Source: Fulvivirga marina
Lineage (GTDB): Bacteria; Bacteroidota; Bacteroidia; Cytophagales; Cyclobacteriaceae
DNA: 64,000 bases
NCBI RefSeq assembly: GCF_016775155.1
Contig: NZ_JAEUGD010000066.1
Span: 780,833-844,832, forward strand
Direction of reading: 5' to 3'
The notes beneath the pieces were generated by a model that ran no database searches, was not told the DNA's origin, and was given only the letters and a program-made list of their open reading frames with translations. Of the stretch, positions 10,701 through 34,057 are shown piece by piece. Numbering within the stretch: the first letter of the stretch is position 1; each line of letters opens with the position of its first letter. Both the position numbers and the translations under genes were made by a program.

Positions 10701-13700
10701 AATTTGCTTAAACGCCCTATCCACCAGTTCAACGTTCAACACTCCTCTGATCTCTTTAGCAGTGGATATATTGTAATTGGTTGATTCTGGAGACAGCTTG
10801 TTCAATACGTACATGCGTTCCTGCTGTGCAGACAATGGGTAATTTGTTTGCTGAGGTGCTTTTTTAATACCAGCTTGTCTCTCAGTCAGGGTTTCCAAAT
10901 GTGCAGCCAGCTCCTTTAGTGTTGGTGTTTTAAAGAGTTGGGCAAGTGGCACTTTGTGACCTGCTACCTTTTCTATCTCAGTTATCAGGAAGGTTGCTCT
11001 AAAGGAATCACCTCCTAAGTCAAAGTAATTGTCATTAATGCTTGCTTTATCGATCTTCAGGTTTCTGCACCAAACAGGCATTAAAACCTTTTCCATCTCT
11101 GTTGAAGGTTCTTCATATACATTACCTGTATTGATCACTTTACCTGGTTCTGGCAACAGGTTACGATTCAGCTTACCATTTGGCGTTAAAGGGATATCAT
11201 CAAGAAATATATAATAAGCAGGTAACATATACTCAGGAAGATTGGTGCTCAATTGCTTACGTATATCCTGCACCGGCATTTCGCTGCCTACCAGATAAGC
11301 GCAAAGGTATGGTTCTCCATCATCAGACTTCCGAACTACTACGGCAGCACTATCTATGCCCTCAATAGTTGAGAGTACTTGCGATATTTCTCCCAACTCT
11401 ATTCGGTTCCCTTTAATCTTCACCTGATCATCGATACGCCCGATAAATTCCAATTGGCTGTCTTTGTTTAGCCTTACCAGGTCACCAGTTTTATACAACC
11501 TCGAAGAGGTAACAGATTCGTTATAGATGAATTTCTCCTCAGTAAGCTCATTATTTACATATCCTCGAGCCAGTCCCATTCCTCCAATATGTAGTTGTCC
11601 GGGGACTCCAAAGGGTACAGGCTGTAGTGCCTCATTCAACACATGAAGCTCAATATTATCTATTGGCCTGCCTATAGGCACTGAAAGCTCCAATGGCTGA
11701 CCTGTACAGTCATAGTAAGACACATCTACCGTAGCCTCTGTGGGGCCATATAGATTGATCAATTGACATTTGTGATCCTTAAACAGGGCATTAAAAGCTT
11801 TTACATGCGAAGGAAGCAGTGCTTCTCCACTGCAGAAAATATACTTTAAGTGCAGCTCTGCTGCGAGACCTTCTTTTTCAACATGATTGAGGAACATCTC
11901 AAACATAGAGGGTACAAAGTGAACCACCGAGACCTGTTGTGATATCAGGTGCTCACAGACATCAGAAGGCGACTTCTCTTCATCTTGCACCATGAGTGAA
12001 AGGCTTGCGCCTCCAAAAGGCCACCAAAACAGCTCCCAAAGGGATACGTCAAACCCAATAGGGGTTTTTTGAACCAATTGATCAGTGCTGTTCAACGGGT
12101 AGTTTTTTTGCATCCAGTGCAACCTGTTCACTAAAGGAAGATGCTCCACCATAACACCCTTGGGTCTGCCCGTAGAACCTGATGTATAGATCATATAAGC
12201 CAGGTCAACACCATCTATTTTCTCATTGAGATCAGTCGTATCATACTGGCGATAGGTCTCCTCTTCAATTAAAACAGTTTCCACAGCCTTCAAAGCTTCA
12301 GGAAGGTCATCGGTCACCAACACTTTTTTGGCTTTCGAATCTTCCAGTATGTAAAGCATACGTTCAGCCGGTGTATTCACTGGTATGGGAAGGTAAACAG
12401 CTCCCATCTTCATGATTGCATAGATGCCGACCATCATCTCCAGAGATCTACCCATGTGAACCCCTACAATATCGCCTTTTCCAACTCCTTCACTTTTAAG
12501 CTTTCGTGCCAGTTGGTTTGCTTTATTATTAAGTTCTCCGTAAGTCAGGTTAGAGCCATTAAAGGATAGCGCAACCTGATCCGGTGATTGTCTCACCTGC
12601 TTTTCAAAAATTGTGATCACTGACTGCACATCTGGCAATGCTGTCTCCGTGGCGTTAAGTTTTCTGAATATCTCCAGATGAGTTTCAGGAGCCTTTAAGG
12701 CTAGTACTTCTTTATCATTAATAACGGATTCTAAAGAAGCTATAAACTGATCAAACATGGCCTGGATAGTATCTTCATCAAAAAGATCCTCAACATAATC
12801 CCAAACCAGCTCAAGTCCCCCGCTTAGCTCCGCTGCTGTACAGTCAATAAAAACCTGAGAAGTCTGAGACACTGCCATACCCGCATCACGCTGATCTCCC
12901 CAGAATCCCAGGATAGCGTCTTCTTCCGTAGCAACAATATCCCCACCAAACAGTGCACTGGTAAACACGTAAGGCATGATAGCGCTTGTACCCATTTTTC
13001 TATGCCTTCTCAGCTCTCTGATGAAATCAATTCCATCATAGAAACGATTATCCAATGACTCCAGCAGCTTGTTCCTAACACTTCCTACCTGATTGCCGAA
13101 TTGCTCATTGGGATCAATGTTTAAACCCAATATTACCAGTGTAGTGAAATCGCCAACCACACGATCTATATCTTCATGGAAAGGGTAGCGATTAAACAAT
13201 GTCAGGTTAATCGCCAGATCGGGAGAGTTACTCCAGAATGAAAGGACTCTGGCATATGCAGTACATAACAATACCGATGGTGTACTATGGTAGGCCTTAG
13301 AAACGGCTTTTAGCTTATCCCACTCGGCACTGGTAAAGAGTTTCCTCTTTCTGTTAAACCTCGGTCGTGCTATCTCTGAAGGGTTGCATTTATAGGGCAA
13401 CTCAGGTGCAGTTGGAAAATCATCCAATTGATCCAACCAATATTTTTTAGACTTTACGAATTTCTCTCCTGAGCGTAGCTCATGGAAATTGTTCATATAA
13501 TCCCTGTAAGTATAGCTTAATTTCGGAAGCTCCACTGAAGGGTCTTTCAGTAACATGCCCCACTCTTTCACAAAGATCATGATGCTGGCAGCATCGCAGA
13601 TCAGGTGATCAAAACAGAAGAAAAGGTAGTTTCTTTCATCTGAAAGCTTGAACACAGAAATTTCAAATAGCGGCCAAACGGTTTCATCAAACAACCGGTT

Positions 13701-16700
13701 ACCCAGCCTTTGGCGTTCAGCTTCTATGTGTTTAGTCTGTTCTTCATCATTAAAAGACCTTAGATCTTTCACTTGTATATCGTAGTGATCTGTGTTATGG
13801 AATTTCTGTGTTCCATCCGGAAGCATGACTACTTTCAGCATCGCATGCCTGTTTAATATGCGGTTGAAGGTGTCATTTAACAGCTTTACATCTACACTCA
13901 ATTCACTTTCCTGATAGACGTTGGTGGAAATACCCCCCATTTCAAAGTGGTCACTCCGTCCCATCAGATAGGCCATCTGTATGGGTGAAATAGGAAATGG
14001 ATCGTAAAAACCGTCTGTTGCCTCCACGTCAATTGCTTCTGGCTTTTCTGCCTCTATAGGCACACCTCCTCCTAACAATTCAGCAATTTTTCTCGCTGTT
14101 CTCAGTTCAAAAAACGTGGTAACCGGAACATCGTAACCAAACTTTTGCTGCATCAGGGATATTGACGAAATTGCTTTTATGGAGTCTCCTCCCAACTCAA
14201 AGAAGTCGTCTTCTACTCCGATACCAGACATACCAAAGGTAGTCTCAAAAGTAGCTATCACATTAGCTTCTACATCACTGGATGGTGCTACATAGGCCGT
14301 GTCAATTTCCGGACGCTGCCCTGAGTTAAGCAAACTATCTTCCCGTGTTTCAGTAACATCCGAAAAATTAAGTTCATCGATAAACTGACGGACCTCGGCA
14401 AGATCGTAAGCTGAAATAGCTACCCTTGGTTCATCATTGGATAAAATTGTGAACAGGGCATGTAAACCTTCTGCTGGTTTAACTGAAAGTAGCTCTTCAA
14501 AGCCTATTTCCTGTCCTTTTATAGAGAATTGGTGGTTTTTAGAAGCCTCTGCAGCTATTCCCGTTCCCTTCCAGTCGTTCCAGTTTACGGTATAAGCATT
14601 AATGTTTTTAGATCGCAATGAATGAACATAGGCATCTAAAAACTCATGACCTGCATTATAAGCTACCTGACCAAACTTCAGGCGTGAGAATATATTACCT
14701 GTGGATGAAAAGTATAAAGCAAAATCCGGGTTTTCACCTTCGATCAGTCGTTCCAGCATCAGTGCACCCAGCACTTTAGGGTCCAGGTATTGAGCTGAAT
14801 CTATCGCATTTCTACCCTGAATTATTCCTCCATTGTCAATGCTTCCAGCAATATGGAACAAACCGTTCAACGCTCCAAACAACTGTTGCGCTTCTGCATA
14901 AGCCTGTTTCAGCAACTCCTGATCGCAGACATCGGCTTGCTTTATTAACAGCCTGGCACCATTCATCTCGGCCTCCTGCAGTTGTCTGATCTTTTGTTTT
15001 ATTTCCTCGCAGGTATCTCCTGAGTCGAGAAGTTCATCCCACTGTTCGCTTTTAGGAAAATCCTTTTTATCGATCAATAAGAAATTAGCCGGAGCCATCT
15101 GAGAAAATGCTTCAACAATTTGCAGAGACATTCCTCCCAGTCCGCCAGTTAGCAGATAAAAACCCTGACTCTTTACTGACATCTGGTTCCCCGTATCTTT
15201 GAGTGCTACAGGAACATATTTCTGAGCGTAGATGTGATCATTTCTATAACTCAATCCCTCTTGGCCTTTGACAAAAGATGTGTTGAGACTCGTCTGCAAT
15301 AGTCCAGTCTTTTCCTGTTCATTAGTCCCACAGAGGTCTTCCCCTGCAAAGTCGATAACCTGTACATTAATATTAGGGTACTCAACAGGTATCACCCTCG
15401 CAGGACCAAGTATAATAGCTTTTTCAGGCTGTACCTTCTGTCCTTCCAATACCGGGTACATATCTGTAGTAATCACTCTGATCAACAGCTTTCCGGAAAA
15501 ATGCTTAGACCATGCCTGCGAAAAATTCAACAATGAATTGTAACCTATATATAAATCTTTACCGGCATCTGGTGCATAGGAACTCCAGTAGTGATGTACT
15601 GTATCAATATCAATACCTTGTTCTTTAACATATTGTACCAGGTGATCAAAATGCTCTGGTTGATCAGGGTTTATAGTAAAGGTATTGTTGTTATGAGCAA
15701 AGCTATCTCCCTTTTTCACCCATACAACTTGTTTTACATTTGAATATATGGCCTTTTCAATGGCTTCTGAATATACATCTTCATCTACAAAAACTATAGC
15801 GGCAGGCACTTCAATATTTTGCTGAACGTCTGTCTTTGTCTGTTTCCAAACGGGCTTATAGAACCACTCGTCAAGGCCATTCTTTTTAAAGCGCTGTACA
15901 TCTTTATTCAGTCGGTAAGTTTTATCAATTCGTTCCTGAATATCAGCAGTGGACAGTATTACCTGATTATGTTCGCTATCTGAAATTATGCGTTCAAAAG
16001 CATCCAGTATTTCATTATGATCTATAGCTAACGGCTGGTCTGCCTGCTTATCTTCAAATCCCAAAAGGTGATCCCAATTGATAGACAGCCACCTTCCTTT
16101 AACCTTATCTTTTACCCAATAACTGAAGGCATCCATAAAGTTATTACCTGCCGCATAGGCTGAGAAAGGTCCCATGAGTGAGGTTAGGGATGAGCTAAAG
16201 ATGCAAAAATCCAGTTCGTGCTCCTTAAAGACCTCGTACAGGTTGATAGTTCCTTTGATCTTGATATCAAACTGTACCTGAAGAGATGAAGCAGGTACTT
16301 CATTAATGATCAAGCCCATAGAATCTCCGGTCATCGTACCTGCTACGTTGATAACTCCGTTGATCTGTCCTACTTCCTTTTCGATCATTTTTACAACTTC
16401 TTCTAAAGAAGATTGCTCCGTGATATCAGCAGAGTAGGTATGTATTCTCCCTCCTTTATCTTCAATCTCTCTGATCTGTTGAATTTTTGAGGCCAGGCCG
16501 GGTGCGATTTCTTCTACTTTATCCCAATCAGCCCTTGACGGATATTGCGTTCTGCTCACTAATACAATATCGGCCTGATTTTGCTCTGAAAGATATTTTG
16601 CATACAAATAGCCTATATTGCTTCTGTTACAAAGACCTCCCAGGATCACTATCACCTTCTTTTCCTCAAAAAGTTGGTCCAGTGCTTTCTTTCGTTTAAC

Positions 16701-19700
16701 CACTGGCTGCTTTCTGTACTGCAATCTCCATTTTCCAGTGCCCCTGAAACCAAGAGTAAGGTCTTTAGGTTGCGATGTTTTTAGTTCTTCGAGTAAAACA
16801 TCCGTGCCAATCGCCTCTTCATTATCGACATCAATATTAATGCATTTTATGGCATCGAATTCGATCGGAATTACTCTACTAGCTCCATATATAGAAGCAG
16901 CTATGGGGTTTAGTGGTTCTGCTCCACTAATCTGATGTACATTTTGGGTCAGTGTATAGATTACAACCTTTTGCTCTTTACCTGCATGTCGGTAGAAGGA
17001 TTTTGCAAAAGAGGTCAGGCACTGGAATCCTGCTGTTATATGAGAGTCAACCGAAGCTGTTTCTACACCACTAGTACTGATACTCCAAAGGTGAACAACT
17101 TTCTCGGGTATAGAGTTATCCGCTTTCAGTTCCTTCAATAGAAAATCATACTGTTTTTCTATCGCAGGGTTGACCTGATAGTGATTTCTCCCTACTCGTT
17201 CAAATTTTCTACCTTCGGTAACTTTTATAACCTGTTGATTTTGTACTTCGAGAGAACTAATCAGTTTTTCAGCGTGGGCAGACCCATCACTAAATACCAG
17301 CCAGCTGTATATTCCGTCAAACGCCTGTTTGCCTGAGGTATAAACTTTCTCCCATGTCGGTAGGTAAAACCACTCGTCTGCATTTATATTTTTTGAGAGC
17401 CCTATGGCAGTAACTGGTACAGGAGCCAACTCAGGTGTTTTCTTTTGATGATCCTTAAACCAATATCTTTTTCTATCAAAGGCATACCCTGGCATAGATA
17501 TGCGTTGCTTCTCTCCCTTTTTATGTAGTGGGCTCCAGTTAATTTCGAGCCCTTGTAACCATAGACGTTGCAGCTTATTCAGTAAGAATCTATGGTCAGT
17601 GACAGCCATAGCTTCCGGTCTGATGAGGTTTGTAGCATAATGTCCCTTATCTAAATCCAGGTAGCGTTGAATGGTTGATGTCAGGTCAGCTCCCGGACCT
17701 ACCTCTATCATAACAGCATTTGGGAGTTCCAAAGCTTTACTCAAACTATCGGAGAACCTTACTTTTTCACATAACTGCTTCTCCCAATAAGTTGTATTAG
17801 TAATTTCCTGTCCTGCCCAATCTCCTGTATTATTGGAGATCAAAGGAATCTCTGTCGGCTGAATTGAAATGCTTTCAAGAACACCTCGAAGTTCAGGAAG
17901 CAATGGCGACATCATAGAGCTATGAAGAGCAAATTGCCCCGGAAGCATTAATGAAAGTATCCTGTCTTCTTTTAGTTTGGCTTCCAGCCTGGCAATCTCC
18001 CCCTTAGGTCCTGAAAGTACACATGAGTCGCCATTGTCGATGGCTACTTCTATTTGTGGCATCAGGTACTCCTCAATTTTCTCTGTACTTAAAGGAACAC
18101 TAAGCATACCGCCCGGCATACTTTTCTCCACCAGTTTTCCTCTGGCTACGACAAGGCGTGTTGCCTCTTCAAATGAAATACTGCCGCCTATGGAGGCAGC
18201 TACCAGTTCACCGAAACTATAGCCAAGAAGCGCATCAGGCTCTACACCAAACGCAACCAATAGTTTGGCCAGTGCCCGCTCAAATACAAAAGTAGCGACC
18301 TGAGCAATTTCAAAGGTGTTGATTTTCTCTTTGGCCTCTGGCTCATTTCCTTTTTGAGGGTAAACAATTGACTTTAGGTCTACATCCAGGTATTTATTCA
18401 CCTGAGCAAAGCCTTCATCCATCGCTTGCCTGAAAATATCATATTTAAGGTAAAGGTCCAGTCCCATATTGACATACTGGCCTCCCAACCCTTGAAAGAC
18501 AAATACAATAGACCTTGACACATTGCCTTTTGCTCTTACAATTTTTTTCTCCGTCAATTCTGGAGCTAATGCATTGAAAAGCTCATCCAGGTCTTTACTC
18601 ACCACAGCACGCCTGTACTCATATGACCCGCGCCCAATCTGAGTAGTGTATGCCAAATCTGAAAGGGAGAGGCTTCCATTTCTTTCTTTGACAAACTGAC
18701 GAAGCTGATCGGTTTGTTTTATTAATGACTGCTCCGACTTGGCTGATAATAGAACCACGGACTCTTCCTCATCCTTATACTCCGGTTTTTGACTATCATA
18801 TTCTTCCAATATAATGTGAGCATTGGTACCACCAATTCCAAACGAGCTTACTGCCGCTCGTCTTGGTCCTGTGCCTGCTTCCCAGACAGTAAGTTTATCA
18901 TTTACCCGGAAAGGGCTATTTTCAAAGTCTATCTTTTCGTTTGGCTCACTAAAATTAATGCTGGGTGGTATCTCTCTGTTTTTCAAAGACAACACAGTTT
19001 TTATAAAACCGGCTACTCCGGCAGCAGCATCCAGATGTCCTGCATTAGATTTAATAGAACCTATACCACAATATTTCTCTCCATTAAAGTGATAAGCCTT
19101 CTTCAAACTTTCTACCTCTACAGGGTCTCCAAGCTGAGTACCTGAGCCATGGGTCTCGATATAATTAATGGTAGTTGGGTCTACTTCTGAAATAGCCAAA
19201 GCACTTTGAATTACAGCAGACTGACCTTCTACACTAGGTGCAGAATAACCCGCCTTGGCATTACCGTCATTATTAATGGCAGATCCTTTAATGACCGCCA
19301 TGATCTGGTCTCCGTCGCTAATGGCATCATCAAGACGCTTCAGTACAACCACACCTACCCCATCGCTTCCCATGAAACCAGTACCATTTTGATCAAAGGG
19401 CCTGCAATGTCCATCAGGGGAAATAATCATCCCTTCCTGGGCAAGCATACCGTATTTACGGGGCAGTTCTAAAGATGGAAATAAAGTACTAACACCTCCG
19501 GCCAGTGCCATATCACATTCACCAGCTAATAATGACTGAACGGCCATGTGTATGGCTACAAGAGAGGTAGAGCAGGCAGTCTGCACGGTCATTGCAGGAC
19601 CTTTCAGGTCAAGTTTATATGCTACCCGGGTGGCCAGGTACTCACGGGCGTTAAGACCTGATATTTCAAATATTTCAGAAAAATTTTTGAACTCAGGCAG

Positions 19701-20108
19701 AAAGTTAGCAACCCAGAAAGGGTTAAATCCAGCTCCTGCAAATAGCCCGGTAACCGGTTTATTGGCACCTCCATACCCGGCATCTTCGAGTGCATGGTAT
19801 ACGCATTCATGAAATAATCTCAATTGCGGATCCATGAAGTTTGCCTCTCTGTCGGTATAGTCAAAAAACGAGGCATCAAACAGCTCTACATCTTCTAATA
19901 CACCTTTCGCCTTCACATATTTAGGATCGTTGATCAAATCCTCACTTATGCCATTGGCTCTGAGTTCTTCATCTGAAAAGAAGCTAATCAGCTCCTTACC
20001 CTCACGGAGGTTGGTCCACAGTTCATTCAGATCTTTTGAGCCAGGAAAACGACCTGACATACCCACTACTGCTATTTCTAAACCTGTATAGTTCTCTTTA
20101 TTATCCAT
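7704..20108 (-). CDS. Hybrid PKS-NRPS, KS-AT-KR-KR-ACP-Cy-A(Ser)-PCP-C-A(Ser)-PCP, 4134 aa
   Basis: Domains by approximate residue: KS 8-435 (TACSTS, Cys179; IETHGSGT; KSNAGHLD); AT 535-880 with GYSFGE (Ser631) and FALHSSMM; first KR 1145-1410 with SSSLTSLMGPFSAY; second KR 1645-1930 with LLTGGLGGM and SSTGNIFSRLKFGQVAY; ACP near 1972 (FFELGGDSIK); Cy domain 2030-2480 with FPISPIQMAYLMGR and the DxxxxD motif DHLICD near 2166; A domain 2520-2990 (pocket D-V-W-H-F-S-L-V-D-K, Ser); PCP near 3030; C domain from about 3090 with HHIITDL; A domain to about 4030 (same Ser code); PCP near 4075. It should extend the Asn starter by one ketide, then add a Ser that the Cy domain can close to an oxazoline, then another Ser. 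No oxidase domain is visible. The tandem KRs, altered AT motif and altered C motif are unusual. It starts 44 bases after the upstream NRPS stop. Confidence 0.95.
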   Translation of the reverse strand: MDNKENYTGLEIAVVGMSGRFPGSKDLNELWTNLREGKELISFFSDEELRANGISEDLINDPKYVKAKGVLEDVELFDASFFDYTDREANFMDPQLRLFHECVYHALEDAGYGGANKPVTGLFAGAGFNPFWVANFLPEFKNFSEIFEISGLNAREYLATRVAYKLDLKGPAMTVQTACSTSLVAIHMAVQSLLAGECDMALAGGVSTLFPSLELPRKYGMLAQEGMIISPDGHCRPFDQNGTGFMGSDGVGVVVLKRLDDAISDGDQIMAVIKGSAINNDGNAKAGYSAPSVEGQSAVIQSALAISEVDPTTINYIETHGSGTQLGDPVEVESLKKAYHFNGEKYCGIGSIKSNAGHLDAAAGVAGFIKTVLSLKNREIPPSINFSEPNEKIDFENSPFRVNDKLTVWEAGTGPRRAAVSSFGIGGTNAHIILEEYDSQKPEYKDEEESVVLLSAKSEQSLIKQTDQLRQFVKERNGSLSLSDLAYTTQIGRGSYEYRRAVVSKDLDELFNALAPELTEKKIVRAKGNVSRSIVFVFQGLGGQYVNMGLDLYLKYDIFRQAMDEGFAQVNKYLDVDLKSIVYPQKGNEPEAKEKINTFEIAQVATFVFERALAKLLVAFGVEPDALLGYSFGELVAASIGGSISFEEATRLVVARGKLVEKSMPGGMLSVPLSTEKIEEYLMPQIEVAIDNGDSCVLSGPKGEIARLEAKLKEDRILSLMLPGQFALHSSMMSPLLPELRGVLESISIQPTEIPLISNNTGDWAGQEITNTTYWEKQLCEKVRFSDSLSKALELPNAVMIEVGPGADLTSTIQRYLDLDKGHYATNLIRPEAMAVTDHRFLLNKLQRLWLQGLEINWSPLHKKGEKQRISMPGYAFDRKRYWFKDHQKKTPELAPVPVTAIGLSKNINADEWFYLPTWEKVYTSGKQAFDGIYSWLVFSDGSAHAEKLISSLEVQNQQVIKVTEGRKFERVGRNHYQVNPAIEKQYDFLLKELKADNSIPEKVVHLWSISTSGVETASVDSHITAGFQCLTSFAKSFYRHAGKEQKVVIYTLTQNVHQISGAEPLNPIAASIYGASRVIPIEFDAIKCINIDVDNEEAIGTDVLLEELKTSQPKDLTLGFRGTGKWRLQYRKQPVVKRKKALDQLFEEKKVIVILGGLCNRSNIGYLYAKYLSEQNQADIVLVSRTQYPSRADWDKVEEIAPGLASKIQQIREIEDKGGRIHTYSADITEQSSLEEVVKMIEKEVGQINGVINVAGTMTGDSMGLIINEVPASSLQVQFDIKIKGTINLYEVFKEHELDFCIFSSSLTSLMGPFSAYAAGNNFMDAFSYWVKDKVKGRWLSINWDHLLGFEDKQADQPLAIDHNEILDAFERIISDSEHNQVILSTADIQERIDKTYRLNKDVQRFKKNGLDEWFYKPVWKQTKTDVQQNIEVPAAIVFVDEDVYSEAIEKAIYSNVKQVVWVKKGDSFAHNNNTFTINPDQPEHFDHLVQYVKEQGIDIDTVHHYWSSYAPDAGKDLYIGYNSLLNFSQAWSKHFSGKLLIRVITTDMYPVLEGQKVQPEKAIILGPARVIPVEYPNINVQVIDFAGEDLCGTNEQEKTGLLQTSLNTSFVKGQEGLSYRNDHIYAQKYVPVALKDTGNQMSVKSQGFYLLTGGLGGMSLQIVEAFSQMAPANFLLIDKKDFPKSEQWDELLDSGDTCEEIKQKIRQLQEAEMNGARLLIKQADVCDQELLKQAYAEAQQLFGALNGLFHIAGSIDNGGIIQGRNAIDSAQYLDPKVLGALMLERLIEGENPDFALYFSSTGNIFSRLKFGQVAYNAGHEFLDAYVHSLRSKNINAYTVNWNDWKGTGIAAEASKNHQFSIKGQEIGFEELLSVKPAEGLHALFTILSNDEPRVAISAYDLAEVRQFIDELNFSDVTETREDSLLNSGQRPEIDTAYVAPSSDVEANVIATFETTFGMSGIGVEDDFFELGGDSIKAISSISLMQQKFGYDVPVTTFFELRTARKIAELLGGGVPIEAEKPEAIDVEATDGFYDPFPISPIQMAYLMGRSDHFEMGGISTNVYQESELSVDVKLLNDTFNRILNRHAMLKVVMLPDGTQKFHNTDHYDIQVKDLRSFNDEEQTKHIEAERQRLGNRLFDETVWPLFEISVFKLSDERNYLFFCFDHLICDAASIMIFVKEWGMLLKDPSVELPKLSYTYRDYMNNFHELRSGEKFVKSKKYWLDQLDDFPTAPELPYKCNPSEIARPRFNRKRKLFTSAEWDKLKAVSKAYHSTPSVLLCTAYARVLSFWSNSPDLAINLTLFNRYPFHEDIDRVVGDFTTLVILGLNIDPNEQFGNQVGSVRNKLLESLDNRFYDGIDFIRELRRHRKMGTSAIMPYVFTSALFGGDIVATEEDAILGFWGDQRDAGMAVSQTSQVFIDCTAAELSGGLELVWDYVEDLFDEDTIQAMFDQFIASLESVINDKEVLALKAPETHLEIFRKLNATETALPDVQSVITIFEKQVRQSPDQVALSFNGSNLTYGELNNKANQLARKLKSEGVGKGDIVGVHMGRSLEMMVGIYAIMKMGAVYLPIPVNTPAERMLYILEDSKAKKVLVTDDLPEALKAVETVLIEEETYRQYDTTDLNEKIDGVDLAYMIYTSGSTGRPKGVMVEHLPLVNRLHWMQKNYPLNSTDQLVQKTPIGFDVSLWELFWWPFGGASLSLMVQDEEKSPSDVCEHLISQQVSVVHFVPSMFEMFLNHVEKEGLAAELHLKYIFCSGEALLPSHVKAFNALFKDHKCQLINLYGPTEATVDVSYYDCTGQPLELSVPIGRPIDNIELHVLNEALQPVPFGVPGQLHIGGMGLARGYVNNELTEEKFIYNESVTSSRLYKTGDLVRLNKDSQLEFIGRIDDQVKIKGNRIELGEISQVLSTIEGIDSAAVVVRKSDDGEPYLCAYLVGSEMPVQDIRKQLSTNLPEYMLPAYYIFLDDIPLTPNGKLNRNLLPEPGKVINTGNVYEEPSTEMEKVLMPVWCRNLKIDKASINDNYFDLGGDSFRATFLITEIEKVAGHKVPLAQLFKTPTLKELAAHLETLTERQAGIKKAPQQTNYPLSAQQERMYVLNKLSPESTNYNISTAKEIRGVLNVELVDRAFKQIIDKHEILRTTFHEENGSYYQRIEEQTKFVIEAVKCGQESVDEKINEFIKPYNLSEGPLMRVAVISVDEDRHYLVLDMHHIITDLMSLGLLINQFISAYQGDEIAFSEFQYKDYAFWQTNEPAKEESMQYWMEQFEGEIPTLNLPLDYSRPSAPTYEGSRYTGNMDESLVKALETLSRKHEATLQMTLMASFLIFLHKVSGQKDLIVGSPVLDSRPAELSESMGIFVNTVVLRSEVDVKSTFAEFLQHIKERILKNYEHLDVQFEDLVDALDIPRDITRNPLFDVLFDFQNTDTKSVDLPGLKVSDYQISRNNANFDLSLVFIKNDNQLELTIDYKSQLFSEQTIQSYFSCIEHIIRQVVAHDETSVSEVSILTDKEKSRVAEQFNQTAAGIPDELILDPFKLSVKQYPDNQAVHYLNESLTYAELDTLSDKIAAYLQHEFDVKKGDFVGYLANKNLWTIPLIYGIIKAGAVYVPMSLDNPLERSRRIVGEARLKMLVSDHPEADQLVDMVSVLDLTTIADHVTDYEGIFEPVALSGTDLAYVIFTSGSTGTPKGVMIDHKALYNRIFWMQKAYSIDSNDTLIQKTPLAFDVSVWELFWWSFTGAALVVLPLGDEKQPEKILNTIEEYGITTIHFVPSMLQAFLNTIKSISEQNRLKSIRQIFVSGEALSVNHVELFKQTVYNKHAACRLINLYGPTEATVDVTHFECPLDTPLSNIPIGKPIDNIKCYIINEVEQLNPVGVPGELCLAGVGLAQGYLNNKELTEAAFINLDAVGERVYKTGDLAKWLPDGNIEYLGRIDHQVKLRGYRIELGEIEAQLSTKPEIEQCVVTSQGVGEQQTLSAYYKSTRELTEKELVEFLMTKIPAYMLPQHYIALSEIPLTSNGKVDRKALPAPDIRDWSYVKPESDIEEKLCELWGEILVVDPAEISTDRSFFALGGNSLRALTLISKINKEFEIEIPFLELFNHQTVQALAAFIELSKWADINDQENNDKKTEMVI

Positions 20109-20152: not shown

Positions 20153-23100
20153 TTATTTCTTGTTCAGTAATGCTCTTCTTTGTCTTAACTTGTTTGGCGC
20201 AGTTCTTTCATTTGCCTGAGGTTTTTCTGCTTCTTTTTTGGCTAAACCATTCAACATTTTAGCAAGTTCATGAACAGTAGACTTCTCGAAGAGGGTGATC
20301 ACGTTGACCTTAGAACCAAAGGCATCACTTAACTTATTAGCTATTCTGGTAAGGTCAAATGACTTTGCTCCGAGATCAAACAGATTGTCATAAATGCCGA
20401 TTTCGTCGATCTTCAGTGCTTCTCGGCATATTTCAGTGACTTTGAGCTCTATCGCCGAAGTGGGTTGTACAAAGTTACTACCCAGTTTTGGCCTGTTGTA
20501 AGAAGTCTTCGGCAATGCCAGGACATCAACTTTACCATTGCTGGTAAGTGGAATGCTGTCAATCTGCACAAAGTGAGACGGGATCATGTATTCCGGCAAC
20601 TCTCTTCTCAGGAATGTTCTGAGTTCAGAAACATTAGGTTCTATATTGGATACCAGATATGCAGTGAGCGTTTCGCCTCCTTCTTCTGTCTCTTCTTTCA
20701 CTACAATGGCCTCATCAATTTCAAATGCTTTGGCATACTCAATTTCTTCAAGAACTTTTCTTACATGCTTTTCGGTTGACCCGAATGCTGTGATCTCTTC
20801 CATACATTCTTCACGCGTGGCCTGGCCCAGGCGAACATCCCAGCTCAATGGTGCGGTATAGAAGTTAAAACCTCTCTCTTTTATGTGGGTGTATATACCT
20901 ATATCATTAATGAGACAATTAGAAGAGCAGAAACCGGTATCTTTTGGCTGTATCCAGCCCTTGCTTAGCAGGTAGCTTCTAATATCACTGATCGGTGTAT
21001 TGTAGTACCGGAAAAAGTCTACAAACTGTACTCCTTCCAGTTTATCATTCACACTCACGTTAAGTAATCTAGAGTACTTGTTGTCTTTTGAGTGGAATTG
21101 ATTTCTAAATATTGTCAATTGCTTTTCGATATCATCTTCCTCAAATACCCTTGCCTCAAATATACCCTCAAGCCTCATGTCATATATCTGCCCTCTTGAC
21201 AAACCTGATATTATATACTTAATCCCATATTCATTCGCCAACTGTACACCAAAAGTATTGATGGCATGCCAGCAACCATGACACGAACTACAGCTTTGCC
21301 TCAAGCTTTCTGCAAATACTTTCTTCATATTATCAGAAGAAATAGTAAAATGCTTGATGCCCAATTTCTCTGTAGTTTTCTCTATATTTTTAAAGGCAGT
21401 TTGTGAAATATAACCATTATCAAAGGTATAGGTCATCACTTTCAGACCGTAGTCTATAAGCTTATACAGAACATAGGTACTGTCCTTACCACCACTATAA
21501 AGCAGCAGGCAGTCATACTCCTGACTGTTGCTTTTCATCTCTGCTGCTACTGCCTCAAAGTCTTCCTCTTTTCTAAAGTAGCTCTCTATTTGTGTTCTGT
21601 AGTGATCAAATTCATTACAGATATTGCAAACGCCTTTGTCATCATATTCTATCCCTGGATAATTTTCCGGCAATAAGCAGCTAGTACACCTGTGCAACTC
21701 TCTTAACTTTTCAGTAGCATTTGCTATACTAAAATCAGGTTCCTTCTCTTCAGTGTTCTGACCATATTGCAAAAGCTTATTTTCAATCTCGCCAAGCTCT
21801 ATTCTGTAGCCGTTTAATTTGATCTGTTTGTCATCTCTACCCAAAAATTCGAGATTTCCGCCGGACAGTACCCGGGCAAGGTCTCCTGTCTTGTATAGTT
21901 TATCTTCACCTGCTCCAAATGGGCTTTGCACGAAACGGGAGGCAGTCATCTCCTCATTATTCACATACCCATCAGCAACTCCTGCACCTCCTATGTAAAT
22001 CTCTCCGGTCTGTCCACAAACAACAGGTTGCATCTGCTCATTCAACACATATATTTGATTATTTACAGATGCATGACCGATCGGAACTGACTTTCTCACA
22101 TCGGTTTTCGGATCATATTTATGAATCATACAACCTACAGTACCTTCTGTAGGTCCGTACTCGTTATACATTTCAATCTCACCATGAAACAGGTCATGGA
22201 TTTGCCTTGCAAGGCTTGTTTTGAAGTCTTCTCCCCCTACTATAAATCTCTTTATCCTCGATGATTTTCCATTTTGCTCTTTCTTCTGCTCCATCTTCTC
22301 TTTGAGCAACCTTAGATGTGAAGGCGTTAGTTTTATCACATCACATTGGTTCTCTTCATATACCCTTTCAATGAGAAAATCATTATTATCGGCATGGTAT
22401 ACTACTATTGAATTTCCTGAGACCAACGGCACAAAGATCGATGTAAGTGTAAGGTCAAAGGCTGGTGATGTAAATAATGGGAAACTTACAGATTCTTCCT
22501 TTACATAATTTTGGATCGAACCTAGTATATAGTTTTTAAAACCACTGCTCTTAACTTTAACTCCTTTGGGCTGCCCAGTGGTACCTGAAGTATAAATTAT
22601 ATAAGCAATATCATCAGGATTGCTTTCTACTGCTTTAAATGTGGAAGACTCCAGTGCTTTAAGAGACACACATACTACTTCCAGATTAAGTTGTAAATAA
22701 TTGGCTTTGGATAGATTTTTCAAATCAGTCAATACCATCCTGGCTCCGCTATTGGCAATAATGTACTTAACACGATCGTCTGGCGTATTTGGAGCGATAG
22801 GTAAGAAAGTGGCGTTTAGTTTCAGGCAGGCAAGCATGGCTGTCACCACTTCAACAGAGGTATCAAAATATAAAACAACAGTATCCTGAGCTTTGATGCC
22901 TTTCTCCTGCAGCATTTCAGCCAATGCCCCGACTTTACCATCCAGCTCAGAGTAGCTGATCATGCCACTATCACCTTTAATAGCGGGTTTTATAGCTCTG
23001 TTACTGACCTGTTCTTCATACTTTCTGATCAAAGATACAGGCTCCCACTCCTTTTGTACCGTATCACCATCGATCTGTTGGATATTGCTCAAAACCTGAT

Positions 23101-24427
23101 AGATTTCGGCTACTTTCTTGTCAGGGTTTTTAATGATAAAGTCAACTATTGAAATGAAGTATGCTTCAATTCGTTGCAGAGATTCCTCAGTAAATGAGTG
23201 CTCATTATAGGTAAAAGTTACCTGAATATTCTTAAACATGGATATTACTACAGAAAGCAGGTAATGCGTCTGATAATCCATATAATGGTCAGTAATTTTT
23301 AATGCACTGGTATTTTCAGTAAGTGACTGATCGAGCGGGTAATTTTCTATTACCACAATAGAGTCGAAGAATCCCTGCTTTGCTCCTTGTACGTATTCAC
23401 CTATACCTGTAAGTGAAGACATCTCGTAAGGAGCTCTTTGGTTTAACGAAGCCTGTACATCACTAAGAACCTGAGCAATGGACTTATTACCGTTGTTTTC
23501 AACAACTAACGGTAATGTATTAATGTATAGTCCTACCGTGTTTTCTATACCCTTTATTGTGTTAGGCCTGGTAGACACCGTCGTTCCTATTGTAACATCC
23601 TCATTGTTAAACTGAGCCAGTAATAAAGCCCACACAGAGTACAATACCGTGGCACTGGTAACCTTCTCTTGCCTTGAAAACTCTTTCAGCCTCTCAACAA
23701 TATTATCATCAAAGTCAAAAATGTGTTTTCTGGTCAGTGATTCTCCAGACTTACTAACTACTTTGTTATGATTTGCAAATGGAATTTCAGGTTTGCCGGC
23801 AAAAGTTTGCAGATAATCCTTCCAAAACGACTCTTCATTTGAAGAATCTAATTTTTTCCACCATTGAATGTATTCTTTAAACTTGGACTTAGACGCAAAT
23901 TGAACTTGTTCACCTTTGCTCAAGGCCTGGTATGCTTCAAAAAACTCTCGAAGTATTACTCCGGTACTCCATCCATCGTATAAAATATGATGGTTGCTTA
24001 CCAATATTCTATATTCGTCAGATTTTACCTTGATCAGTTTTACTCTAAATGGTACTTCATTGAGATTAAACCCCTGGTTAAGATCATCTTTTCTTAATAC
24101 TGCAATTTTGGCATCTAATTCTTCCCCTTCTGTTTCAGTGAGGTCAACCACTTCGAGTTTTAGTTCAGATTGTTTGAGAACCGCCATCACTGGTTTCTTC
24201 AAACCTTCCCATCTAAATACTGTCCTGAGTATTTCATTTGATTTCTGAATTTCACTCCATGCCTTTTCGAATATTTCAGGATCCAAAGTTTCTCCCTCAA
24301 CTCTTAGGTAAAGCTGTTCTGCATACTGGCGAGATTCCTTGGGATTGCTCAAATAATGCACCAGCAATCCTTCTTGAAAAGGTGTTACTTCTAAAAGGTC
24401 TTCAATGTTTTGTTTATCTAATTTCAT
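20153..24427 (-). CDS. NRPS C-A(Asn)-PCP with PP-loop ATPase embedded in the A domain, 1424 aa
   Basis: The C domain has VTPFQEGLLVHYL near residue 14 and HHILYDG near 145. The A domain has YTSGTTGQPKG near 611, YGPTEGT near 756 and A8 (RDDKQIKLNGYRIELGEIE) near 862-882. The pocket reads D-L-T-K-I-G-E-V-G-K, one change from the Asn code DLTKLGEVGK. After A8 the chain departs from the A fold for about 340 residues (890-1235). This insert has paired CxxC motifs (C914/C917 and C934/C937), the PP-loop SGGKDS at 978-983, and further Cys motifs CSSCHGC (near 1045) and FCSSNC (near 1165). A9-A10 then resume, with TSNGKVD near 1293. The PCP (LFDLGAKSF) is near 1354. The insert resembles N-acetyl-sugar amidotransferases of the WbpG/PseA type. 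By family logic it would adenylate a carbonyl oxygen and replace it with N or S, or dehydrate an amide. No E or TE domain is present. It is probably the first enzyme of the left assembly line. Confidence 0.92.
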   Translation of the reverse strand: MKLDKQNIEDLLEVTPFQEGLLVHYLSNPKESRQYAEQLYLRVEGETLDPEIFEKAWSEIQKSNEILRTVFRWEGLKKPVMAVLKQSELKLEVVDLTETEGEELDAKIAVLRKDDLNQGFNLNEVPFRVKLIKVKSDEYRILVSNHHILYDGWSTGVILREFFEAYQALSKGEQVQFASKSKFKEYIQWWKKLDSSNEESFWKDYLQTFAGKPEIPFANHNKVVSKSGESLTRKHIFDFDDNIVERLKEFSRQEKVTSATVLYSVWALLLAQFNNEDVTIGTTVSTRPNTIKGIENTVGLYINTLPLVVENNGNKSIAQVLSDVQASLNQRAPYEMSSLTGIGEYVQGAKQGFFDSIVVIENYPLDQSLTENTSALKITDHYMDYQTHYLLSVVISMFKNIQVTFTYNEHSFTEESLQRIEAYFISIVDFIIKNPDKKVAEIYQVLSNIQQIDGDTVQKEWEPVSLIRKYEEQVSNRAIKPAIKGDSGMISYSELDGKVGALAEMLQEKGIKAQDTVVLYFDTSVEVVTAMLACLKLNATFLPIAPNTPDDRVKYIIANSGARMVLTDLKNLSKANYLQLNLEVVCVSLKALESSTFKAVESNPDDIAYIIYTSGTTGQPKGVKVKSSGFKNYILGSIQNYVKEESVSFPLFTSPAFDLTLTSIFVPLVSGNSIVVYHADNNDFLIERVYEENQCDVIKLTPSHLRLLKEKMEQKKEQNGKSSRIKRFIVGGEDFKTSLARQIHDLFHGEIEMYNEYGPTEGTVGCMIHKYDPKTDVRKSVPIGHASVNNQIYVLNEQMQPVVCGQTGEIYIGGAGVADGYVNNEEMTASRFVQSPFGAGEDKLYKTGDLARVLSGGNLEFLGRDDKQIKLNGYRIELGEIENKLLQYGQNTEEKEPDFSIANATEKLRELHRCTSCLLPENYPGIEYDDKGVCNICNEFDHYRTQIESYFRKEEDFEAVAAEMKSNSQEYDCLLLYSGGKDSTYVLYKLIDYGLKVMTYTFDNGYISQTAFKNIEKTTEKLGIKHFTISSDNMKKVFAESLRQSCSSCHGCWHAINTFGVQLANEYGIKYIISGLSRGQIYDMRLEGIFEARVFEEDDIEKQLTIFRNQFHSKDNKYSRLLNVSVNDKLEGVQFVDFFRYYNTPISDIRSYLLSKGWIQPKDTGFCSSNCLINDIGIYTHIKERGFNFYTAPLSWDVRLGQATREECMEEITAFGSTEKHVRKVLEEIEYAKAFEIDEAIVVKEETEEGGETLTAYLVSNIEPNVSELRTFLRRELPEYMIPSHFVQIDSIPLTSNGKVDVLALPKTSYNRPKLGSNFVQPTSAIELKVTEICREALKIDEIGIYDNLFDLGAKSFDLTRIANKLSDAFGSKVNVITLFEKSTVHELAKMLNGLAKKEAEKPQANERTAPNKLRQRRALLNKK

Positions 24428-27026: not shown

Positions 27027-28568
27027 TCAGTTTATCAGAGCACTAGACCTCAATTGTTTTCTATCAATCTTTCCACTTGCCAGTCTTGGTAATTCGGTGA
27101 CCTCCAAATAGCGATTAGGGGTCATATATGCCGGCAGGCTAGACTTTGCGTAATTCTTAATTTCATCAAGATCAGCATTTTCTCTGACGATTATATGAGC
27201 CACTATAAACACAACATTTTCGCTCTTCTTATCCAACACCACTGCACACTCTTTAACGTTTGGGTGTCTCAACAGTAGGTTCTCAATTTCACCAAGTTCT
27301 ATTCTTATTCCTCTAACTTTTACCTGGTCATCATTTCTTCCGTAAAAGTACACAAGTCCGTCAGAAGTCATGGTCCCCAGATCACCTGTTTTATAAATTC
27401 TCTTTCCTATGCCCGTGTGATATACAAAGTGTTGATTGGTTAGAGCAGGTTGATTTATATACCCTTTCGCCAGATTAATTCCTGAAATGGCTATTTCTCC
27501 TGTATCCCCTTCGTTCAAAACCTCATCCCCATCTATAATATGTAATCCTGTATTGGCAATAGACCTCCCTATTGGAATATTCTGCCCCAGATCATGAGAC
27601 GGAACATTGAAGTAAGTAACATCTACGGTAGCCTCTGTAGGTCCATAAAAGTTCACCAACCTGGTATTCTCGTAAGTAAACAGGCTATAAAACTTCTCAG
27701 CAAGAGTAACTCCCAAAGACTCCCCACTACAAAATACATATTTCAGGCTGGAAAGACTTTCAAGCTCAGGTGGGCCAATGTAATTGAGAAAAACATTAAG
27801 CAAAGAAGGGATAAAGTGCATAAAGCTCACTTTATTCTCTTGTACTGCACTTACAATTGCCTGCGGAAATTTCTCATACCCATGCTCGAGAATGAAAAGG
27901 CTGGCTCCACCAAAGTACCAAAGAAATATCTCCCATACAGAAACATCAAATATGTATGGTGTCTTTTGGATAAGCACATCCTCCGGCACCAGGTCATATT
28001 CCTCTTTCATCCATTGCAGTCTGTTAATTGCAGACTTGTGTTCAATCATCACTCCCTTAGGGTCCCCTGTTGAGCCTGAAGTAAAAATTACATAAGCCAG
28101 ATCATCCGGGTTGCTGATGTATTCAAGGTCAGAATTTCCAATATTTACTTCAGATTCTGCCTCTTCTAATATCACCTGAACGCATGCTTCTGTAAGCTCA
28201 AGGGTAGCTGAAGACTCGTTAGTCAATAACAGGTTAGCCCCTGCCAATGATAATATCCTGCAATTCCTTGAATTTGGAGCTGAAGGGTCCAAAGGTAAAT
28301 ATGGTGCTCCCGAAAACAATATACCCAATATCCCCACCAGCATATCAACTGATCTCTCCATTACAATGCCCACGGGTATGTTTCTTTCAGCTCCTCTTAG
28401 CCTTAAGGCACTCCCTAACCTTTTTGCACGCACAAGCAACTCTCCATAGGTCATGGTATTTCCCATGGCATCGCTGACGGCTATTTTTTTCGGAAACTCG
28501 ATTGCAGTGTCTTCGAATACCCTATGTAAGGTGGTATTGAGAGACGCTATGTTTTTTGTCGAAATCAT
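27027..28568 (-). CDS. Stand-alone Ser adenylation enzyme for aminomalonyl-ACP, 513 aa
   Basis: This is a free-standing adenylation domain without C or PCP, matching the role of ZmaJ in zwittermicin A and ClbH's Ser-activating function in colibactin. Visible motifs are FTSGSTGDPKG, FDVSVWEIF, YGPTEAT, YKTGDLG, RNDDQVKVRGIRIELGEIE and the catalytic Lys in LASGKIDRK. The pocket reads D-V-W-H-F-S-F-V-D-K, closely matching Ser codes. It should adenylate L-Ser and load it onto the small ACP encoded at 29705-29986, after which two dehydrogenases oxidise the side chain to aminomalonyl-ACP. Its start lies 47 bases inside the upstream acyl-CoA dehydrogenase gene. The assignment rests on the code plus the neighbouring cassette; biochemical specificity is inferred. 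Confidence 0.9.
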   Translation of the reverse strand: MISTKNIASLNTTLHRVFEDTAIEFPKKIAVSDAMGNTMTYGELLVRAKRLGSALRLRGAERNIPVGIVMERSVDMLVGILGILFSGAPYLPLDPSAPNSRNCRILSLAGANLLLTNESSATLELTEACVQVILEEAESEVNIGNSDLEYISNPDDLAYVIFTSGSTGDPKGVMIEHKSAINRLQWMKEEYDLVPEDVLIQKTPYIFDVSVWEIFLWYFGGASLFILEHGYEKFPQAIVSAVQENKVSFMHFIPSLLNVFLNYIGPPELESLSSLKYVFCSGESLGVTLAEKFYSLFTYENTRLVNFYGPTEATVDVTYFNVPSHDLGQNIPIGRSIANTGLHIIDGDEVLNEGDTGEIAISGINLAKGYINQPALTNQHFVYHTGIGKRIYKTGDLGTMTSDGLVYFYGRNDDQVKVRGIRIELGEIENLLLRHPNVKECAVVLDKKSENVVFIVAHIIVRENADLDEIKNYAKSSLPAYMTPNRYLEVTELPRLASGKIDRKQLRSSALIN

Positions 28569-29712
28569 TTAATTTTTCCTGTCTAGACTTAATTGCGTAA
28601 TGCTTACCAAGAAACTGAACCAGTACGGGGTTACTACCTTCAACTACTTCCATAATCTTCGCGTCCCGATATAGCCTTGGGAGAATATTATCTTCAAAGC
28701 AGCCGGCAGCCCCCATAACCTGAATAGCTTCAGGAATATGTGTTGCAGCCATTTTACTGGCATAATACTTTGCTGCCATCACAGCTTCCATCGATTTAGA
28801 AAGATCGTGCTCAATTGACTCTGCCGCCTGGTTACAAAAGAATTTAGCAGACTCATAGGCCATCCCCATGTTGGCCAATAGCTCTTGAATTATGGGCTGA
28901 TCTACCAGTTTTTTCCCAAAGGTCATGCGGTCATTGGCATAAGCGCTTGCCACCTCCATACCACCCTTCAAAATTCCCAGAGAAGCAAATGCCACGCTTA
29001 ATCTTCCATAGCGTAAAGCATAAGGGGCGATGAAACTGAGCGCCATACCGGGTTTACCAACAAGGTGGTCTTCTCTGATCAGACAGTTATCAAATTGTAA
29101 TCTGGCCAGATGCGCTCCCCTGAAGCCAAGCATTGACTTGATCGGCTCAATCTCAAAACCTGGTGTACCCTTCTCCACAAGGTATACCGTACCCGCACCT
29201 TCCTGTTTTCCAAAAACCAGAAATACATCGGCAACGGCTCCAAAAGTGATCCACTTCTTTGTTCCGGTTAACCTAATCCCTTCATCTGTTTTGGTGTAGG
29301 TGGTATTTACTGATTGGATATCACTACCTACCTCAGGCTCAGTAAGGGCAAAAGCACCGATTATTTCTCCAGAGGTTAACCTGGGTAACCACTTTGCTTT
29401 TTGAGATTCAGTCCCCCACTTTTCAATAGTTTTGGTCACCATAAAGTGAACGTTGAAGAGCCCGGTGAGGGATGGAGAAAACTGCCCGGCCAATAAGTTA
29501 AGCATTCCATAGGTAAGAGCGTCCCATCCAGAACCACCATACTCCCTTGAAACATACCCTCCAAGAATGCCTTCAGAAGCCAGCATATCTATAGACTGCT
29601 GGTCCACTCCTTCGTTTAATTCCCATTCCCCGGATCGTTCACTGAGGTTTTTGAGTAAGCTGCTGAAACATGCTACCTGTTCACGCTGAGAAGCGTTCAA
29701 ATACTCAAACAT
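28522..29712 (-). CDS. Acyl-CoA dehydrogenase-like enzyme of the aminomalonyl-ACP cassette (ZmaI/ClbF type), 396 aa
   Basis: This is an FAD-dependent acyl-CoA dehydrogenase of normal length. Family landmarks are the FALTEPEVGSD motif near residue 117, KKWITFG, FGKKLVDQPIIQE, QVMGAAGC, and MEVVEGSN carrying the likely catalytic Glu. In zwittermicin and colibactin, homologous enzymes act on carrier-protein-bound intermediates: the Ser side chain is oxidised first by a 3-hydroxyacyl-CoA dehydrogenase and then by this type of enzyme to give aminomalonyl-ACP. It sits directly between the ACP gene (8-base overlap) and the Ser adenylation gene (47-base overlap), the expected partners. It could instead serve the hydroxymalonyl route, but that route has its own paralogue at 32600-33745. 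Confidence 0.9.
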   Translation of the reverse strand: MFEYLNASQREQVACFSSLLKNLSERSGEWELNEGVDQQSIDMLASEGILGGYVSREYGGSGWDALTYGMLNLLAGQFSPSLTGLFNVHFMVTKTIEKWGTESQKAKWLPRLTSGEIIGAFALTEPEVGSDIQSVNTTYTKTDEGIRLTGTKKWITFGAVADVFLVFGKQEGAGTVYLVEKGTPGFEIEPIKSMLGFRGAHLARLQFDNCLIREDHLVGKPGMALSFIAPYALRYGRLSVAFASLGILKGGMEVASAYANDRMTFGKKLVDQPIIQELLANMGMAYESAKFFCNQAAESIEHDLSKSMEAVMAAKYYASKMAATHIPEAIQVMGAAGCFEDNILPRLYRDAKIMEVVEGSNPVLVQFLGKHYAIKSRQEKLNDFDKKHSVSQYHLT

Positions 29713-29986
29713 TACTAGTCATCTTTGCAGTGACAAATTCATTTATTTTTGAAATTGTGCTGAAAGTATCAAGGCTTAGGTCCTGAATAGTAACTTTGAT
29801 ATTGAACTGTTTTTCAATAAAAGTCATCAGTTCAATGGCAAATAGGGAATTAACCAACCCTGATTCAAAAATATTTTCATGTTCATCAATTTCATCAATA
29901 CCTGTATGAGCTGATATAAATGCCACAACCTGATTATTGATCTCTGGATTAACTTCTGTCATTTTTTTATTGTCAGTTATATTCAT
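29705..29986 (-). CDS. Small acyl carrier protein, probably carrying Ser/aminomalonyl, 93 aa
   Basis: This discrete ACP has the phosphopantetheine attachment motif FESGLVNSLFAIEL with Ser47, in place of the usual DSL. The same G-x-V-N-S pattern occurs in the second small ACP of this unit. The motif and context match ZmaH/ClbE-type ACPs, on which Ser is oxidised to aminomalonyl. It overlaps the upstream dehydrogenase gene by 14 bases and the downstream one by 8. An alternative start at codon 9 would remove one overlap. Which extender it carries is inferred from the Ser adenylation gene lying two genes downstream. Confidence 0.9.
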   Translation of the reverse strand: MNITDNKKMTEVNPEINNQVVAFISAHTGIDEIDEHENIFESGLVNSLFAIELMTFIEKQFNIKVTIQDLSLDTFSTISKINEFVTAKMTSNV

Positions 29987-30836: not shown

Positions 30837-30850
30837 TGTGTTATTTTATA

Positions 30851-32585: not shown

Positions 32586-32599
32586 TGCTGAATTATAAA

Positions 32600-33745: not shown

Positions 33746-33759
33746 AGAATCTATTGTTA

Positions 33760-34014
33760 TTATTCAGTTACGCCCAACTTTCGGTCAAGCAGCGCTATTA
33801 TATTATTAACCGAACTGAAGTTTTTAATATCCATCTCGTCAGTTTCTATCTTCACATTAAACTCTGATTCAATATAGTTAAGCAGTTTCATAGCAAATAA
33901 AGAGTTTACATACCCTAGTTGAAATATGTTATCATCATCTTTAAGGTCCGCTTCATCCTCAAATACAATGAGGTTTGACTCGATAAACTGTCGAACTTGT
34001 TCTTTTTGATTCAT
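33760..34014 (-). CDS. Small acyl carrier protein, probably carrying glyceryl/hydroxymalonyl, 84 aa
   Basis: This discrete ACP has the attachment motif FQLGYVNSLFAMKL with Ser38. It lies between the FkbH-like gene (43 bases upstream) and the acyl-CoA dehydrogenase (14 bases downstream). That position matches FkbJ or ZmaD, the carrier on which a glyceryl group from 1,3-bisphosphoglycerate is oxidised to hydroxymalonyl. It shares the VNS motif with the other small ACP, so the two probably arose by duplication and specialised for different extenders. The carrier assignment is inferred from context. Confidence 0.9.
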   Translation of the reverse strand: MNQKEQVRQFIESNLIVFEDEADLKDDDNIFQLGYVNSLFAMKLLNYIESEFNVKIETDEMDIKNFSSVNNIIALLDRKLGVTE

Positions 34015-34057
34015 ATTGTATTTAAATTTTCCTCTTTTAGCTGATCCTATAACGTCG

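Follow-up and report, generated by a model that had tools for sequence, protein, structure and literature searches.

The adenylation (A) domains of nonribosomal peptide synthetases (NRPSs) can be interrupted, and the interrupted A domains that are known carry methyltransferase, oxidase or ketoreductase inserts; to our knowledge, all described inserts are methyltransferase or redox domains. Here, we analyze a 64,000-nucleotide stretch of the Fulvivirga marina genome (assembly GCF_016775155.1, contig NZ_JAEUGD010000066.1, positions 780,833 to 844,832; below, the window), which encodes an NRPS module whose A domain is interrupted by a PP-loop ATPase domain. As in other interrupted A domains, the insert lies between motifs A8 and A9, the A domain resumes after it, and the A10 lysine is kept. 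Unlike in those, however, the insert is a PP-loop ATPase, and neither a methyltransferase nor a redox domain. Interrupted A domains as such are already known, and the PP-loop insert is a new insert type. A preliminary description of this DNA knew of no NRPS with such an arrangement, and our searches of an open-access library, from which subscription journals are mostly missing, listed none.

The insert can be compared with several known systems. N-acetyl sugar amidotransferases (NASATs; WbpG, WbuX and LpNASAT, 8wex; profile TIGR03573) work with glutaminase partner genes. YcfA, the thioamide former of 6-thioguanine, is free-standing and has a nucleotide substrate, whereas the window domain is built into an NRPS. 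The PP-loop sulfurtransferases LarE, TtuA and NcsA/Ncs6, which have a [4Fe-4S] cluster and take tRNA or the precursor of a cofactor as substrate, differ from the insert in its C-terminal half, and in the insert the cluster is a prediction. Finally, ArtA forms the nitrile in auranthine, and ArtA/NitB is a separate protein, termed argininosuccinate-synthetase-like in the reference list of the same article (PMC13060819).

Results

The module gene encodes 1424 amino acids without an internal stop. Besides the condensation (C), A9-A10 and peptidyl carrier protein (PCP) regions given in Table 1, Pfam recognizes AMP-binding at residues 471-821, and the NCBIfam model AA-adenyl-dom matches residues 491-888. 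The insert is 323 residues long, and A9-A10 (LPEYMIPSH...NGKVD) resume after it in unchanged frame. Because the HHILYDG motif of the C domain, the resumed LPEYMIPSH and NGKVD motifs and the LGAKS motif of the PCP are all present, the module looks intact by sequence. The nine-residue code of the host A domain, read by motif position, is DLTKIGEVG, a pattern that we take to specify Asn. The preliminary description had placed a PP-loop ATPase between A8 and A9 of one Asn-type A domain; the single frame, the Pfam and NCBIfam matches and the code bear this out, and when the sequence was re-read C914/C917, C934/C937 and SGGKDS (978-983) were found where it had put them. Two trivial explanations were rejected. 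Two separate proteins or domains are ruled out by the single frame and by the 67 readable tails, in which A10 comes after the insert, and an assembly artefact is ruled out because 9 of the 148 genomes of the window's family share the insertion at the same A-domain site.

A comparison with PP-loop and NASAT models, as the preliminary description had suggested, matched the insert to TIGR03573 (NCBIfam, WbuX, N-acetyl sugar amidotransferase) over residues 913-1228 with an E-value of 9.7e-42 and 143.6 bits, which is below the curated cut-off of 203.2 bits. Judged by this match, the insert is a PP-loop ATPase related to NASATs along its whole length. It falls within the NASAT fold, and it contains both SGGXDS and CXXCXn[GN]XCXXC, the motifs that define NASATs in PMC10607449. 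SGGKDS is kept in all 77 aligned inserts, as are three positions of the tetracysteine, the fourth being present in 75 of the 77. What separates the insert from NASATs is an extra CXXC...C triad (C1049, C1052 and C1171; C140, C143 and C262 in insert numbering), which is cysteine in 77/77 aligned inserts and in 0/11 NASATs, each of them from a genome of the window's family. In these NASATs the three positions hold E/D, then T/S/Q, then I/R/L/T/V, and in the alignment the NASAT structure 8wex likewise lacks cysteines there; the triad is present in two of three odd stand-alone proteins. Going by these alignments, the active site of the insert differs from that of a NASAT.

SGGXDS with CXXC-C is the described signature of [4Fe-4S] LarE, and the cluster of TtuA is bound by three cysteines (PMC9283937). 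The corresponding combination of [4Fe-4S] sulfurtransferases, SGGXDS plus CXXC...C, occurs in 77/77 inserts, and HMMER aligns the CXXC of the insert with that of 8cnz (entry title mmLarE-[4Fe-4S]). None of 12 relatives exceeded the cut-off of the LarE profile; the QueC profile gave 28.5 bits against a cut-off of 22, covering just 72 residues of the PP-loop.

The arrangement is widespread. Of the 148 genomes of the window's family, 30 have a match to the insert at E≤1e-10 and nine, the window's own genome included, at E<1e-70; in all nine the insert lies at the same site inside an NRPS A domain, with the A core and A9-A10 in one frame. A phylum-wide profile search at E≤1e-40 matched 2 of 395 genomes, one being the window's own. 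G345, a further match from this search, was included in the glutamine amidotransferase and Aminotran_5 searches described below. In a contig scan of GTDB genomes, in which loci were chosen by likeness to the insert and independently of the host code, the best 80 of 82 loci comprised 60 with the insert within an A domain, five whose insert-bearing protein lacks an A core (L050, L053, L064, L074 and L078; Pfam for L053 and L064 only), one insert-bearing gene ending at the contig edge (L093), two stand-alone relatives (L105 and L106), and 12 other or weak PP-loop matches. The 60 loci are spread over at least 15 phyla, with two unplaced. Together with the nine family genomes, they bring to at least 69 the A domains with an equivalent insertion, one of them a duplicate (L036 and L086 stand for a single contig); L059 and L102 belong to one species. 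Thus, the homologous NRPSs that the preliminary description had advised searching for do exist.

Of 194 A domains found in these loci, 170 were counted after 23 short or gapped ones and L036 had been dropped. The amino-acid meanings of all codes (Asn, Gln, Ser, His, Pro, Cys, Val and Dab) are our assumption here and below. A code could be read in 67 insert-bearing A domains: 61 are Asn-like, three are Gln-like (DAQDIGVVD in L033 and L040, DPQDLGLID in L041) and three have a DxRH code whose amino acid is not readable (L054, L065 and L073). The 103 A domains without insert in the same loci include one Asn-like code, in the window, four DxRH and 98 others; the difference (Fisher p 6e-42) is descriptive, since the sequences share descent. 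The A10 lysine was seen in 67/67 tails long enough to read, 54 by pattern and 13 by eye. As the hosts are almost all of the Asn or Gln type (64/67), the side-chain amide is indicated as the substrate, which strengthens the earlier proposal that the insert acts on the Asn amide. A side-chain carboxamide is thus very probably the substrate of the insert.

In a 57-row tree (a quick tree of 91 rows was also made), the NRPS-linked inserts form one clade (100/99), the stand-alone L105 and L106 are the next branch (98/89), and the NASATs fall outside. The host A cores, on the other hand, are not one clade: there are three changes, with an approximately unbiased (AU) test p of 5.9e-5 in a 38-row subset with 14 hosts, and the Gln and DxRH hosts belong to A-core lineages other than that of Asn. 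The window's A core sits among the Asn cores (support 99), and its insert clusters weakly with those of Gln hosts (90/72). One clade of 17 Asn-host inserts was rejected (AU p 0.020, 30 rows; a test devised after the tree had been seen). Since the inserts are one clade but the host cores are not, the insert seems to have been paired with more than one kind of A domain, most of them selecting an amino acid with a carboxamide. The simplest reading is that A cores were exchanged under a common insert, while the carboxamide side chain was retained.

In all three cis-DxRH loci the gene immediately upstream is of AsnB type, and both stand-alone loci have an AsnB-type gene, then a carrier protein, then the PP-loop gene. 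A count by sequence pattern had matched the AsnB gene of L106 only; Pfam and blastp confirmed all five, each with an Asn_synthase match. Blastp of the five against all open reading frames of 77 loci (flanks mostly ≤10 kb) gave no further AsnB, and none in the Asn-host loci, the Gln-host loci or the five trans loci in which the insert-bearing protein lacks an A core. Since Asn and Gln bring their own carboxamide and AsnB accompanies other settings, the PP-loop domain probably works on a carboxamide, supplied by AsnB where the host is not Asn or Gln. The five trans loci are an imperfect fit to this reading.

Some features of these loci may be recorded separately. The stand-alone proteins of L105 and L106 have the same seven cysteines, and the run of AsnB, carrier and PP-loop genes (L105 7749-11041, L106 7727-11029) adjoins NRPS genes. 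The five trans proteins (L050, L053, L064, L074 and L078) are from Streptomyces and Pseudomonas; their PP-loop domain lies between an A-subdomain remnant (AMP-binding_C in L053) and part of a C-like domain, and a DARH-type A domain is encoded alongside.

The preliminary description had seen no HisH-like glutaminase in the window. Likewise, in 9/9 genomes the contig of the insert is free of glutamine amidotransferase (GATase, PF00117) matches out to 35 kb, some contigs ending sooner; the closest one is some 38 kb from the insert, in G066. Sulfur genes were not apparent among 13 neighbour families present in at least four loci, several of which were named by eye only. Among the matches listed for Aminotran_5, a family wider than the cysteine desulfurases, none adjoined the insert: the nearest was weak and about 10 kb off, in G123.

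The main Asn lineage comprises 60 loci, with flanks that extend no more than 10 kb and are often shorter, so that neighbour counts are lower bounds; neighbour families were identified by Pfam from single representatives, and "Pro-like" was assigned crudely, to any code with Y or F in fourth position. HupE/UreJ-like genes and A domains with Pro-like codes each occur in at least 37 of the 60, A domains with His-like codes in at least 34, small carrier proteins in at least 28, acyl-CoA dehydrogenases in at least 26, TonB receptors in at least 21 and OCD in at least 13. Pro-like, insert-bearing Asn (Asn*) and His-like domains occur together in at least 24, and none of Pro-like, His-like or HupE was seen in 11. 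These settings suggest that the main lineage may make a pyrrole-Asn*-His metallophore and that many relatives lie in metallophore-like clusters. In L045 (17346-19907), ZnuA- and ABC-3-like genes adjoin an NRPS cluster with Asn* and His-like domains, a hint of a zinc metallophore. The neighbouring modules vary, with codes resembling those for His, Cys, Val, Dab and Ser; a Cys-like code is found in a neighbouring A domain of both L044 and L058. In L102 (9302-9829) and 12 similar Bacteroidota loci, a small His-rich protein, for which Pfam gave no match, is encoded between the NRPS and a TonB receptor. When divergent promoters from 14 of 16 Bacteroidota loci were compared, no clear palindrome was shared that could be a common metal-regulator box.

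The setting in the window differs from that of the main Asn lineage, the next line being a PKS-NRPS with Ser-like codes (Table 1); a congener (G142) has the same gene order over the stretch read. The Ser-like A domain, carriers, dehydrogenases and FkbH-like protein would make aminomalonyl- and hydroxymalonyl-type units.

Several further observations concern the window. The two sets of carrier and acyl-CoA dehydrogenase at 27027-35128(-), together with the genes for the FkbH-like protein, the 3-hydroxyacyl-CoA dehydrogenase and the Ser-like A domain, would suit unusual three-carbon extender units, but no more than one KS-AT was seen. The PKS part at 7704-20108(-) seemingly has two successive KR-like stretches, each after a similar EWFY..W sequence. 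At 38303-43918(-), a complete A domain (DTESIGTVC, ending NGKID) is nested in the C-terminal subdomain of another A domain (DVGHFSLIE), which has its own LPVYMIP...SGKVD after the inner one, and this A-in-A unit is followed by a PCP and a TE domain. Three Sulfotransfer_2 genes lie in the NRPS region (30851-31717, 31695-32585 and 59396-60082, all -), and an UpxY-type antiterminator gene, 35406-35939(-), heads the gene run.

Table 1. Features of the window, with positions on the 64,000-nucleotide stretch
Feature	Position	Strand	Basis
NRPS module C-A(PP-loop)-PCP, 1424 aa	20153..24427	-	ORF without internal stop, Pfam
Condensation domain, residues 9-443, HHILYDG	23099..24403	-	Pfam, sequence
A-domain core to A8, residues 471 to about 890, code DLTKIGEVG	21758..23017	-	Pfam/NCBIfam, motifs
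Inserted PP-loop domain, residues 910-1232	20732..21700	-	NCBIfam, alignment
NASAT-type tetracysteine C914, C917, C934, C937 (zinc in LpNASAT)	21617..21688	-	sequence, alignment; motif definition, PMC10607449
PP-loop SGGKDS, residues 978-983	21479..21496	-	sequence, alignment
CXXC of the triad, C1049 and C1052	21272..21283	-	alignment, 77/77
Third triad cysteine, C1171 (SSNC)	20915..20917	-	alignment, 77/77
A9-A10 part, residues 1236-1299, A10 lysine in NGKVD	20531..20722	-	Pfam AMP-binding_C
PCP, residues 1329-1392, LGAKS	20252..20443	-	Pfam PP-binding
Last C-A-PCP protein, code DVQHISMIH	4325..7702	-	domain matches, code
PKS-NRPS: KS, AT, KR-like stretches, two C-A-PCP modules with presumed Ser-like codes	7704..20108	-	domain matches, codes
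Stand-alone A domain, code DVWHFSFVD (taken as Ser-like)	27027..28568	-	Pfam, code
Acyl-CoA-dehydrogenase-like gene	28522..29712	-	Pfam
Carrier protein, 93 aa	29705..29986	-	PP-binding, 32.0 bits
3-hydroxyacyl-CoA-dehydrogenase-like gene	29973..30836	-	Pfam
Second acyl-CoA-dehydrogenase-like gene	32600..33745	-	Pfam
Second carrier protein, 84 aa	33760..34014	-	PP-binding, 34.1 bits
FkbH-like gene	34058..35128	-	TIGR01686, 278.5 bits

Discussion

We propose that the insert tailors the substrate on-line: using ATP, it would activate the carboxamide in the side chain of the residue chosen by its own A domain, Asn in the window and Gln in some relatives. The residue might be modified as the adenylate, on the PCP or within the growing chain. 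The PP-loop would adenylate the amide oxygen, a sulfide bound to a [4Fe-4S] cluster, itself ligated by C1049, C1052 and C1171, would displace the oxygen, and the product would be a side-chain thioamide (thio-asparagine); the tetracysteine would be a structural zinc site. That the chemistry of the insert indeed consists of a [4Fe-4S] cluster, sulfur transfer and a thioamide is a proposal whose chances we regard as evenly balanced. The preliminary description had named an amidine, a cyclic imine, a thioamide and a nitrile as possible products. Because the invariant CXXC...C triad separates the insert from NASATs, the balance tilts from the amidine to the thioamide: the triad favours the latter and lowers the former.

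Several other outcomes deserve consideration. A nitrile synthetase, in which the primary amide is adenylated and AMP eliminated to give a cyano derivative of Asn or Gln, would need no second substrate or partner. However, it would leave the invariant triad unexplained, ArtA and QueC align with only part of the PP-loop core, and a nitrile is a poor ligand for clusters that look like those of metallophores, so that we consider it unlikely. An amidotransferase like the NASATs, replacing the amide oxygen with ammonia to form a side-chain amidine of Asn or Gln, agrees with the profile match, but the residues that NASATs have at the CXXC are cysteines in every aligned insert, and no GATase match was found within 35 kb of the insert on its contig in the nine genomes; free ammonia could serve instead, and yet this outcome seems rather unlikely to us. 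Activation of an amide by a PP-loop would also permit ring closure to a cyclic amidine or other heterocycle, the attacking nucleophile coming from the activated residue itself or from one beside it; no result pointed to this directly. For Gln a five-membered ring could form, but Asn, the main host, would give a four-membered ring from its alpha-nitrogen, the codes of the neighbouring modules vary, and the triad would have no role, all of which makes ring closure improbable.

The two remaining explanations dispense with the side chain or with catalysis. If the insert acted on the backbone, for example on an aminoacyl or peptidyl thioester, its association with Asn and Gln would merely reflect descent, and it is true that most of the sequences are kin and that 61 of the 67 hosts are of a single Asn type. 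Against this, the Gln and DxRH hosts stem from other A-core lineages, the window combines an Asn-type core with an insert that leans towards those of Gln hosts, and a single clade of Asn-host inserts was rejected, so that backbone action appears very improbable. Nothing was found in favour of a catalytically dead or purely structural insert, which, given the conservation of SGGKDS, the triad and the tetracysteine, is barely credible.

Conclusions

Taken at its broadest, the thioamide proposal would define a class of NRPS domain that is new: a PP-loop thioamide synthase with an iron-sulfur cluster, housed in Asn and Gln A domains, which would write thio-Asn or thio-Gln on-line, across many phyla, into small metal-scavenging peptides composed of a pyrrole-type starter, Asn* and His. 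We put this forward tentatively, as a possibility with somewhat less than an even chance. ATP-dependent amide activation by the insert would be a new tailoring reaction of the assembly line, and such an insert would flag peptides that code-based predictors read as containing ordinary Asn or Gln. It would also provide a system for studying how one PP-loop scaffold selects between amidine, nitrile and thioamide. The relatives, finally, suggest an unrecognised and widely distributed family of metallophores that may be searched for by mass.
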